A stretch of 40,735 nucleotides of DNA from Candidatus Latescibacterota bacterium. Its GTDB lineage: Bacteria; Krumholzibacteriota; Krumholzibacteriia; Krumholzibacteriales; Krumholzibacteriaceae. Where the stretch lies: the NCBI GenBank assembly GCA_019038625.1, contig JAHOYU010000062.1:1-40735 (forward strand), read 5' to 3'. Each line of letters begins with the position of its first letter. Positions within the stretch are counted from its first letter, which is position 1. The position numbers and the translations under genes were made by a program. Shown in pieces: positions 1-18,918 of the stretch. The notes under the pieces are model-generated. The model was not told the DNA's origin. It searched no databases and saw only the letters and a list, made by a program, of their open reading frames with translations.

Positions 1-55
1 GGAATGGTGTCCGGCTTCGTCCGGAATCAGTGTCCGGGTTGCTCCGGAATACGCA
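1..55. repeat. Tandem 23-bp repeats, probable IS21-family terminus
   Basis: Two adjacent 23-bp direct repeats lie at 7-29 and 30-52, each beginning GTGTCCGG and containing TCCGGAAT. They differ at five positions. Bases 1-6 look like the tail of a further copy that leaves the window. Read on the minus strand the end is TGCGTATTCCGG, starting with the TG dinucleotide. IS21-family elements carry multiple short terminal repeats of this general form, bound by the transposase, so I infer one end of such an element whose body lies left of the window. No transposase gene is visible to confirm it. Confidence 0.5.
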
Positions 56-73
56 TTCAGAAGAGCAAGAAAG

Positions 74-123
74 AAAGCGGTACGATACCAGCCCCCACGA
101 AGCTGGAATCGTCACCGCTTTTT
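74..123 (+). terminator. Long hairpin plus T-run upstream of rep: terminator or replication-origin hairpin
   Basis: The arms at 76-92 and 102-119 pair with only one bulged base and one mismatch, around a 9-nt loop (CCCCACGAA). The 3' arm runs into TTTTT. This has the form of a factor-independent terminator on the plus strand. Because it lies about 40 nt before an HUH replication initiator gene, it could instead be, or also be, a hairpin recognised by that initiator. The sequence alone does not decide between them. Confidence 0.5.
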
Positions 124-165
124 CTGTTTCCACGGATGAGGGCGGAAGAAGTTTGGGAGGAAAAG

Positions 166-1197
166 ATGATTGGATCCCCTTCACTTGATCTTAAGAAGGA
201 TAAATGTAACAGGCCTTGCGGATCAAAAGCGCTGAGAACGAAGATACTAGAGGCAGGATTACAGTGGAAATACATCTACAAACGACTTAACTGCAAGCGG
301 TGGGATTGCGAGAGATGTGGGCCAATTATGGCTTGGCAGCGATGTAAGGATATATCGAAGATTGCAGAGGAGAAACAACTAGATCGCTTTCTCACCTTAA
401 CACTAGACCCTAGCAAGATCCCAAAGGATATCAATCCATTCAAATACATTTGGAAGGTGTGGAGTAAATTTCGTGTGTATCTCGGAAGAAAAAACAAAAA
501 GGCAATATCCTACATATGTGTAGTTGAGCCTCACAAATCAGGATTACCACATCTCCACGTTCTAATAGATAGATTCATCGCTCAGAAGTGGGCAAGTAAT
601 GCATGGTCTTCAGTTGGAGGAGGAAAAATTGTGTTTATTAAAAAAGTGAAAGAGATAAGAGACATCGGGAAATACTTGGCGAAGTATCTAACGAAAATAA
701 CAAAGGAAGCTCTTCCTAGAAGATTTCGGAGGATATCAACATCCAGAGACATAAAGCTGAACACTTTTGAAAAAGGTGGTATTGAATGGAAAATGTCTCC
801 ACTTTACATGGAAATGCTGGAAAAATATGGAGAAGATAATATATGCCAGAAGATATATGACGAGAATGATTTACTGAAAGCCATAGTCACAGATGAAAGC
901 CTAGACGGAGAAGTAGGACTTGAATTTTGGGACGAAGATATGGTATCAGGAAAAGTTACCGGCTGGGGAATAGGAGGAAACAGTGAAGAAATGCGTGATT
1001 TATGTGAGGGTATCAAGCAAGGAACAATCAGAGAAGGGGTTCTCGATATCCTCTCAGAGGGAGTTGCTGATCTCGTACGCAAAGAAAGAGAAGCTGAAAA
1101 TAGAGAAAATATTCGAAGAGGTGGAAAGCGCAAAAAAAGCGGGAAGAAAAAAGTTCGAGGAAATGGTAAAGCTTCTAAGAAAAAACGGAAGCATTGA
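166..1197 (+). CDS. HUH-family rolling-circle replication initiator (Rep)
   Basis: The encoded 343-aa protein has the layout of phage and plasmid rolling-circle Rep endonucleases. There is an N-terminal set of cysteines (C14, C18, C43, C48, C51) likely to bind metal and a motif-1-like FLTLTLD at 75-81. The HUH motif is H129-L-H131 in GLPHLHVLI. A catalytic tyrosine motif YLAKYLTK spans 170-177, with Y170 or Y174 the nicking residue and K177 behind it. The start was chosen at the ATG preceded by GGGAGG with a 5-nt spacer; an upstream ATG at position 4 would place coding sequence across the hairpin and repeats. The last 71 residues are Lys/Arg-rich and overlap the recombinase in another frame. 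The role is to nick origin DNA and start strand-displacement replication. Replicon type is unknown; filamentous-phage-like or plasmid are both possible. Confidence 0.8.
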   Translation: MIGSPSLDLKKDKCNRPCGSKALRTKILEAGLQWKYIYKRLNCKRWDCERCGPIMAWQRCKDISKIAEEKQLDRFLTLTLDPSKIPKDINPFKYIWKVWSKFRVYLGRKNKKAISYICVVEPHKSGLPHLHVLIDRFIAQKWASNAWSSVGGGKIVFIKKVKEIRDIGKYLAKYLTKITKEALPRRFRRISTSRDIKLNTFEKGGIEWKMSPLYMEMLEKYGEDNICQKIYDENDLLKAIVTDESLDGEVGLEFWDEDMVSGKVTGWGIGGNSEEMRDLCEGIKQGTIREGVLDILSEGVADLVRKEREAENRENIRRGGKRKKSGKKKVRGNGKASKKKRKH

Positions 1198-2461
1198 ACA
1201 CATTCTGGTTGAAAAAACAGACCGGCTTACAAGAAATTTCAGAGATGTTGTAAAAATCGATGATCTCGGCAGGACAATTCATTTTGTCAAAGAGGGGAAT
1301 ATCTTAACGCCTGACTCAAAATCAGGCGAGAAATTGATGCACGACATTAAAGTTGTCCTGGCAAAAAACTACATCGACAATCTATCGGAAGAAACTAGCA
1401 AGGGCATGTTGGAGAAGGCCAGACAGAATATCTGGCCTTCTGTTGCCCCATTGGGATATTTAAACAATCGAGAAACAAAGAGAATTGATGTTGATTTCAA
1501 AAGGGCTCCGATAATCAGAGAATTGTTCGAGGAATATTCATCTGGAAAGATGTCTCTAAGATCAGCAACAAAGTATGCGAAAGAAAAAGGACTGAGATCA
1601 AAGAAGGGGAATACTGTTTCTCAGTCGAATATCTACAAGATACTAATCAATCCAATATACATCGGAGATTTTGTCTGGAAGGGTGTCTATTACAAGGGAA
1701 GTCATAATCCCATAGTATCGAGAGAGGTATTCGATAGAGTTCAGATCGCTGTTAGGAACAAAAGCAAACCGGCAAAAAGAAAACATGATTTAGCATTTAG
1801 GGGATTAGCAAGATGTGGCAATTGTGGCTGTATGATCACTGGGGAATTCAAGAAAGAGAAATACACTTACTACCGCTGCACAAGAATGAGGGGAAATTGC
1901 GTCGAGAAGCCAATAACTGAATCAAGGCTGGCTGAGATGCTAGGAGAACCTTTAAAGCGGCTCAGAATGACTGATGAGCGCCTTGAGTGGATTATTGAGG
2001 CATTGAAAGAGAGTCATCAGGAAGAAAAGAAATACAAAGCTGAAGAAATTAGAAAACTGGAATCAGAGTATGAAGGATTGAGTTGGAAGATAGACAAACT
2101 CTATGAAGATAAACTGGAGGATGTCATTCCGCCGAATTTTTGGAAGAGTAAATTTAAAGAGTATCAAAGCCGGCAGGATAAAATAACAGAGCTGATCGAG
2201 GAACACCGGACTGCTGGGAAGGATTATCTGGAGAACGGCGTCAGGATATTAGAACTCGCTCAAAAGGCTTACTCCCTTTATGTTATGCAGGATTCTTTCG
2301 AAAAGCGTAAATTACTCGATTTGCTATATTGGAACTGCACTCTGGAAGGTGGAATAGCAAAAGGCGAACTGCGTAAGCCCTTTGATTTAATTGCAGATGG
2401 AGTGGCAGAGGAAGAACGCCTGATAAAGGAAAAAGCCCCCGAAAAGGCCCTAAATGAAAAT

Positions 2462-2476
<15 letters not shown>
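983..2476 (+). CDS. Large serine recombinase (integrase/resolvase family)
   Basis: The 497-aa protein shows the serine recombinase order. The catalytic domain has R9-V-S11 (nucleophile S11) in YVRVSS, and DRLTRN at 80-85. A Recombinase domain spans about 150-260 (PLGYL, INPIYIG), followed by a zinc ribbon with C278, C281, C299 and C306. A charged coiled-coil region lies at about 335-405. Such enzymes cut both strands at short att sites through a phosphoserine link and integrate or excise elements. The GTG start has an excellent AGGAGG 5 nt upstream and gives the canonical N-terminus, so the 215-nt overlap with rep is real rather than a start error. The final codons lie within the 3' end of the opposing tRNA-Asn gene. 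Codon use is AT-rich compared with the ribosomal genes, pointing to transfer. Confidence 0.9.
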
Positions 2477-2537
<61 letters not shown>

Positions 2538-17507: not shown

Positions 17508-17876
17508 CTAGATGACCTCAGGAGCCAGGGACACGATCTTCATGAACTGCTTTTCCCTGAGTTCTCGCGCGACCGGCCCGAAAATCCTCGTTCCGACCGG
17601 CTCCTTCTGCTCATTTATGATGACAGCCGCATTCTGATCGAATCTGATATAGCTGCCGTCTTTCCTTCTGATTTCCTTCTTTGTGCGTACTATGACACAC
17701 TTCACGACCTGGCCCTTCTTCACGCCGCCGCCGGGCATTGCCACCCTGACGGATGCGCTGATGATATCGCCGATACGCGCGTAACGTTTTTTTGACCCGC
17801 CGAGAACCTTGATACAGCGGATACTTTTCGCTCCCGAATTATCAGCGACAGCCAGATTTGTCTGCATTTGGATCAT
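17508..17876 (-). CDS. rplN: 50S ribosomal protein L14
   Basis: The 122-aa L14 is of exact family length, starting [17 protein letters not shown] and carrying the conserved [11 protein letters not shown]. It forms an intersubunit bridge with 16S helix 14. It follows rpsQ by 10 nt. Confidence 0.98.
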
Positions 17877-17886
17877 CGTCGTTCTC

Positions 17887-18144
17887 CTACTTCGCCCTCT
17901 CGATTACTTCGATTACACGCCAGCGTTTAAACTTGCTTAGCGGTCTCGTAGACATCACTCTTACCTTATCCCCGATGTGGCAATCATTCTCCGCGTCGTG
18001 AACCCAAATCTTCGATGTCTTCTTCACGATCTTCTTGTAACGCGGATGCTGGAACGTCCGTTTGATGGAGACCGTAATGGTCTTTTCCATCTTGTCACTG
18101 ACAACCCACCCGATCAGGGTCTTTCTGGGTTTTCTTTCCTCCAT
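17887..18144 (-). CDS. rpsQ: 30S ribosomal protein S17
   Basis: The 85-aa S17 is an OB-fold primary 16S binder, with [19 protein letters not shown] and [17 protein letters not shown]. The open frame extends 21 codons upstream, but the ATG chosen has GAGGAG 6 nt ahead and gives the normal length. Confidence 0.96.
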
Positions 18145-18232
18145 CGTTTCTCCTCGTCCATCCGGGGTGCCGACCTGATGGTCTTTGCAGCCCCTTGAAG
18201 CGATCAATCACGCTTCATGTTGAGCGTTCCCG

Positions 18233-18454
18233 CTACGCCTCTTCATTCTCCTGATTCGCGGCAAGCTTCTCGTTTATGATCGTCTTGACTCGCGCCAGTT
18301 CGCGCCGCGTACTGCGTACCTGCAGCGGATTGTCGAGACGTTTGATCGAAAGCTTGATCTTACTCGTAGTAAGCTCCTCGACCAGATCTTCTTCCTTCAA
18401 CCTCAACTCATCCAGTGTAAGTTCTCTAATTTCTACAGCCTTCATATCAACCAT
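18233..18454 (-). CDS. rpmC: 50S ribosomal protein L29
   Basis: The 73-aa L29 has MKAVEIRELTLDEL and RSTRRELARVKTIINEK. It borders the exit tunnel. The start could be this ATG (GGAAAG 6 nt upstream) or the ATG three codons later, which gives the typical MKA N-terminus; I cannot separate them. Confidence 0.94.
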   Translation of the reverse strand: MVDMKAVEIRELTLDELRLKEEDLVEELTTSKIKLSIKRLDNPLQVRSTRRELARVKTIINEKLAANQENEEA

Positions 18455-18489
18455 CCAGATCTTTCCGGTTCATCCTCTGCCCTGGTCCC

Positions 18490-18918
18490 CTAACCGGCAA
18501 CCTTACCGCTAGCAATACGGCGGACAAATTTCGTCTTGATGGGAAGCTTCGCCGAAGCAAGCTCCATCGCTCTCTTTGCCAGATCCTGTTCCACTCCCTC
18601 GAGCTCGAACATGATGCGGCCCGGTTTTACAACGGCCACCCAGTACTCGGGCGCGCCTTTTCCCTTACCCATCCTCGTCTCTGCCGGTTTTACCGTGACC
18701 GGTTTGTCGGGGAACACCCTGATCCACAGCTTCCCCTGCCTGTTTATATGGCGCATAATGGCCACACGGGCTGCCTCGATCTGCCTGTTGGTGATCCAGG
18801 CGGGTGCCTCAGCCTGAAGGCCGTACTCGCCGAAGCTGATCTTCGACCCGCGCTGAGCCATGCCGCGCATCCGACCCCTCTGCTGTTTTCTGTGCTTTGT
18901 ACGTTTCGGCATTAACAT
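18490..18918 (-). CDS. rplP: 50S ribosomal protein L16
   Basis: The 142-aa L16 has [18 protein letters not shown] and [20 protein letters not shown]. It lies at the A-site tRNA elbow. An ATG two codons downstream gives the usual MPKRT start, but the upstream ATG has the better-spaced GAGAGG (10 nt). Confidence 0.96.

Follow-up and report, generated by a model that had tools for sequence, protein, structure and literature searches.

The filamentous phiRSM phages are among the closest known systems to the locus analysed here. They carry pII, ORF13 and a serine integrase (Int), the latter described as a resolvase-like small serine recombinase, together with virion genes, and their 13-nt attP matches the 3' end of a tRNA-Ser gene; attP adjoins the recombinase gene, and attB is situated at the tRNA 3' end in reverse orientation (PMC3816273). 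Serine recombinases have also been tabulated for inoviruses (PMC6813254).

The DNA studied here (the window, 40,735 nt) is contig C62 of a 269-contig Candidatus Latescibacterota genome (G000) and starts at the first base of the contig, 165 nt before a rep gene. The locus resembles phiRSM in that a Rep (pII in the phages) lies upstream of a serine recombinase and in that the probable att site lies at a tRNA 3' end in reverse orientation. In phiRSM, however, ORF13 stands between pII and Int, whereas in the window the two genes overlap directly by 215 nt; the phage recombinase is small, whereas that of the window is a large serine recombinase (LSR) of 497 aa in which Recombinase and Zn-ribbon domains are recognised; and the phages have virion genes, while none are seen in the element of the window, which is truncated. 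The features of the locus are collected in Table 1.

Table 1. Features of the rep-LSR locus, in window positions.
Feature	Positions	Strand	Evidence
IS-like terminal sequence at contig start; element truncated there	1-58		Similarity to plasmid records; inference, not family match
Hairpin between IS-like end and rep (AAGCGGTACGAT...CACCGCTTTTT)	75-128	+	DNA fold of 60-165
rep, HUH replication initiator, 343 aa	166-1197	+	PF23343, phrog_3419, motif residues kept in relatives, fold matches
Shine-Dalgarno AGGAGG for recombinase gene, within rep	972-977	+	Sequence; 5 nt spacing to GTG 983
Overlap rep/LSR	983-1197	+	215 nt, LSR in +1 phase; sequence, ORF list, frame-openness tests
Large serine recombinase, 497 aa; catalytic Ser11; zinc ribbon C278/C281/C299/C306	983-2476	+	PF00239, PF07508, PF13408; phrog_95; invariant columns
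Probable attR core region TTGGCTCCTCAGG, tRNA 3' end	2461-2473		Single copy in own genome; same sequence at G008 junction
tRNA-Asn(GTT), integration target	2462-2537	-	ARAGORN

Gene families and the tRNA junction

The rep gene starts at ATG 166, with a GGGAGG ahead of it at 155-160, and its stop codon ends at 1197. Its product matches the Pfam family REP_ORF2-G2P (PF23343) at 2.8e-14 with 53.6 bits (cut-off 27.8) and the rolling-circle initiation family phrog_3419 of PHROGs at 3.4e-14; the NCBIfam matches of both Rep and LSR fall under their cut-offs. The HUH motif H129-L-H131 is accompanied by Tyr170/Tyr174, and H129, H131 and Y170 are invariant in the relatives. The protein thus belongs to the HUH initiators, within the REP_ORF2-G2P type known from inoviruses and microviruses. 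The AlphaFold model of the protein, built on a three-sequence alignment, is weak (mean pLDDT 54), with a confident core at approximately residues 60-170 and low confidence for most residues past 200. Microvirus replication initiators are among the best matches to this model in a viral fold library. None of the PDB folds passes 0.001, and HUH nucleases (Helitron transposase, parvovirus NS1, geminivirus Rep) stand near the head of that list, above 0.001; a PDB sequence search gave no significant match.

The LSR gene runs from a GTG at 983 to a stop codon at 2474-2476, and its product passes the Pfam cut-offs for Resolvase (PF00239, 1.3e-23), Recombinase (PF07508, 1.1e-18) and Zn_ribbon (PF13408, 6.9e-07), besides matching phrog_95 at 1.7e-78. 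Residues R9, S11, R81 and R84, which we take to be catalytic from what is known of the family, are unchanged in three homologues; the recombinase looks intact. The original prediction of an HUH Rep and a large serine recombinase whose genes overlap by 215 nt in different frames agrees with the coordinates and with the Pfam and PHROGs results; the AGGAGG that it placed ahead of the GTG is confirmed, and so is the Rep frame that stays open to 1197.

The LSR stop codon falls 15 nt inside the host tRNA-Asn(GTT) gene, at its 3' end. A search for attL in the window's own genome found none, the right junction alone being present in the assembly. Entry of the LSR frame into a host tRNA gene (Asn, Asp, Gln or Arg), by 15-66 nt, was observed in 8/8 whole-genome relatives with an examined junction (window 2462-2476, included in the count; L010 2005-2019; L077, L078, L079, L080, L081 and L082), and the last residues and the stop codon are therefore read from tRNA sequence at these eight loci. 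In G136, G188, G234 and G182, no att identity block of at least 12 nt was found in the 20-40 kb upstream, and four of the eight loci thus yielded no attL of this length. Several contigs (G010:C8, G051:C187, G054:C3, G043:C67 and G077:C317) begin within about 40 nt of a tRNA-Asn match, from which it may be that tRNA-Asn is often occupied by mobile elements in the phylum.

At the other end of the locus, positions 1-58 share about 80% identity over roughly 50-56 nt with 11 plasmid records; among the matches listed, four plasmid records overlap a DDE transposase annotation, and the closest plasmid match falls in an unannotated stretch. Because these positions resemble the end of an insertion sequence (IS), the contig start truncates the element, probably at such an IS. 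The original prediction had noted neither this truncation nor the end of LSR within the tRNA-Asn gene. The IS-like end lies about 107 nt before rep, and the DNA fold of positions 60-165 between them reaches -19.5 kcal/mol (z -3.2 vs shuffles); its strong hairpin may act as a terminator or belong to an origin.

Relatives of the gene pair

Relatives of Rep and LSR were sought in 80 genomes of the phylum, which yielded Rep relatives in G062 and G002 and close LSR relatives in G008 and G062. The G062 locus (L006, in JAUSBL010000055.1, a Candidatus Latescibacterota MAG) holds rep at 17603-18601 and LSR from 18510. Gene order and phase agree with those of the window, and the proteins are about 40% (Rep) and 52% (LSR) identical to their window counterparts. 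The locus of this distant relative differs in the length of the overlap, which is 92 nt, in the extra genes upstream and in its Rep, which lacks a basic tail and whose frame closes 30 codons inside the overlap. The G062 contig ends in TTGGCTCCCC, a 3' end of tRNA-Asn type, the tRNA itself being cut away by the contig end. A single copy of TTGGCTCCCCAGG, which is again of the type seen at tRNA-Asn 3' ends, is present in the G062 genome 4.7 kb before the contig end, and its first 10 nt are repeated at that end; on the strength of this 10-nt shared repeat it is a probable attL, and the element would probably measure 4.7 kb, bounded by a tRNA-Asn-like repeat. The genes of this element beyond rep and LSR bear no virion annotation, its low-GC island gave no Zot or coat hit, and the island genes gave no match in PADLOC. 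Two genes (199 and 275 aa) lie upstream of the G062 rep, at L006 15991-17404, for which searches gave no convincing family; the first contains RNRLVH, similar by eye to the R-x4-H motif of HEPN proteins.

The closest LSR relative, 66% identical, was found in G008, a genome of the same bacterial family, at the same tRNA-Asn, with the same junction and its stop at the same place in the tRNA. In contrast to the window, the gene upstream of it is an unrelated 115-aa ORF, which ends 8 nt before LSR and leaves no overlap, and no Rep of the window type was found in the G008 genome. The Rep homologue of G002 (33% identity over residues 12-202) is located in a tRNA-side island and has no basic tail, but no LSR adjoins it. 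This island (L008 12784-15600) adjoins the tRNA-Leu and contains the recombinase, tyrosine-type by sequence, an HTH regulator and the Rep homologue.

Outside the phylum genomes, the inovirus contig L031 (IMGVR_UViG_3300025018_001141) encodes Zot, then a Rep of the REP_ORF2-G2P family and then an LSR on the same strand, the last 36% identical to the LSR of the window. The Rep-then-LSR order on one strand is common to both, whereas in L031 the two genes are separated by a gap of 324 nt and are accompanied by Zot and a coat-like gene. The L031 Rep was reached through its LSR, and Rep pattern scans of IMG/VR had returned no relative; since they missed L031, these scans lack sensitivity and their negative results carry little weight. 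Scanning with the single LSR protein returned nothing, while the alignment scan gave 22 relatives. No Rep was found in phage and plasmid records, and a scan of genome contigs returned the G062 record only. A match in G156 (9e-9) was set aside: the protein is a distant HUH member, and the ORFs of its 2.1-kb locus include no LSR.

Nature of the element

The explanation that we favour, and regard as reasonably probable though well short of settled, is that the locus forms the right-hand end of a small mobile element, integrated and of ssDNA-phage type, a tRNA-borne remnant truncated at an IS-like sequence at the contig start. Both genes would be read from one transcript, with LSR translation beginning at a strong ribosome site of its own within rep, so that the two activities would have a common mRNA and separate start sites. 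LSR would act at the tRNA 3' end to integrate and excise the element; Rep would nick the excised circle to give rolling-circle replication. The overlap would be a feature of some members of a Rep-LSR module, with a dispensable tail. This account is favoured by the families and motifs of Rep and LSR, the Microvirus initiators among the best viral fold matches, the G062 pair in the same order and phase, the G008 junction at the same tRNA-Asn, the Zot-Rep-LSR order of L031, the parallel with phiRSM and a tail that is neither conserved nor confidently modelled. Against it counts that the element is truncated, its full gene content, attL and promoter being out of view. Statements on the group rest on n=2, because only two overlapping Rep-LSR pairs are known. 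The alternatives weighed here and below are compatible with this explanation, and the confidences attached to them are not shares of one total.

The element could also be an ordinary inovirus prophage with its virion genes past the end of the contig or missing from the bin; this is possible but rather unlikely, and would be compatible with the same account of the overlap. The inovirus/microvirus type of Rep, the identical gene order in an inovirus contig and the end of the window contig just before rep are what such a phage would leave. However, Zot has no match in the window's own genome, although the element is truncated and the missing part may be outside the bin, and the related G062 element has no Zot or coat hit either. 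No coat or adhesin genes were found in the portion of the element present, the upstream part lying beyond the contig start. The absence of Zot counts against a complete inovirus, not decisively. Given the G062 genes without virion annotation and the own genome without a Zot match, the element is not filed as an inovirus; inovirus-type ancestry is nevertheless likely.

The overlap and the basic tail

In the ORF listing, LSR lies in the +1 phase relative to rep. When the LSR protein was held fixed and its synonymous codons were redrawn, a Rep-phase frame open over 70 codons was retained in 0.53%, 0.19% or 0.41% of the redrawn sequences, depending on which of three codon pools was used; the resulting P of about 0.002-0.005 is not corrected for the choice of the locus by its ORF length. 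A chance origin of the open Rep frame across the LSR start is unlikely. A sequencing frameshift in 900-1197, raised in the original prediction, is also an unlikely source of the overlap, because G062 independently shows the two genes overlapping in this phase, by 92 nt.

The original prediction had further called an overlap of this size uncommon, and the comparison upholds it. In the other LSR relatives inspected (IMG/VR, phages, other genomes) the overlap with the nearest upstream ORF is at most 44 nt, apart from three exceptions of 116-233 nt, whose upstream ORFs of 82-191 aa matched no Pfam or PHROG family. The largest exception, L078, is the one among the three whose ORFs were listed in full, and its overlapping ORF is read in another frame of a longer, 318-aa ORF, whose end lies 47 nt ahead of the LSR start adopted. 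Long overlaps between replication-initiator and integrase genes appear uncommon, with no comparable family-supported case among the LSR relatives inspected, and no report of a rep-LSR overlap was found among the results of searches in an open-licence full-text library.

A decaying remnant, in which an IS removed or separated the upstream part, the rep stop was lost by drift and the overlap has no function, is likewise possible but rather unlikely. It would suit the IS-like end so close to rep, a tail that is not conserved and overlap lengths that differ between the two pairs (92 vs 215 nt), but both genes are intact, with good ribosome sites and motifs, the open frame is improbable by chance, and the G062 overlap is in the same phase.

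That the overlap is truly dual-coding, with the 71-codon Lys/Arg-rich tail kept by selection as a basic extension for DNA binding or regulation and with both frames constraining 983-1197, is improbable. The openness of the frame speaks for it, as do the LSR third positions, which in the overlap are T-poor (5 of 71 codons, vs 14-22 per 71-codon window clear of the overlap) and also G-rich. Once an open frame is taken as given, the scarcity of T is ordinary (P 0.14), and G enrichment (P 0.02) and the scarcity of W/C/S/F/Y (P 0.018) are weakly unusual, these being 2 of four statistics looked at together. The basic composition is not separate evidence, since 23 or more Lys/Arg residues arise in 41% of open-frame draws (P 0.41). 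In the 30 opening codons of the overlap, window and G062 show a higher Rep-frame similarity than synonymous redraws do (P 0.02), yet this is equalled in the controls with G008 (window vs G008, P 0.02; G062 vs G008, P 0.005). Because these controls behave alike without a Rep, the excess is attributed to shared LSR codon history, not to Rep, and Rep-frame conservation was discarded as evidence for dual coding. Moreover, frame openness in G062 is ordinary (P 0.74), and the tail is modelled with low confidence.

As for the recurrence of both features in related elements, the overlap does return, in the one relative G062, whereas the basic tail is absent from both Rep relatives, and the idea of a conserved basic tail was rejected. 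The last ~40 codons of Rep are probably a lineage-specific, dispensable extension, and a functional dual-coded tail is unproven. It is very doubtful that the locus stands for a whole family of rolling-circle replicons in this candidate phylum, integrative and minimal, that would have Rep, LSR and little cargo but no virion genes. In such a family the +1 overlap would co-express replication and excision, and the host tRNA gene would supply the C-terminus and stop of LSR in the integrated state.

The favoured explanation of a truncated ssDNA-phage-type element leaves a Rep-LSR module of known kind, with an overlap that is unusual and has been seen twice, whose genes are probably linked at the mRNA level; a tied expression of Rep and LSR, as first proposed, is plausible. 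Because the tail was found nowhere else, this is an unusual arrangement of familiar parts and not a new system. If the recurrence holds, the overlap would offer a small integrative element a simple genetic means of coupling its excision with its replication, and it puts replicons of the ssDNA-phage type that carry large serine integrases in a bacterial phylum of which little is known.
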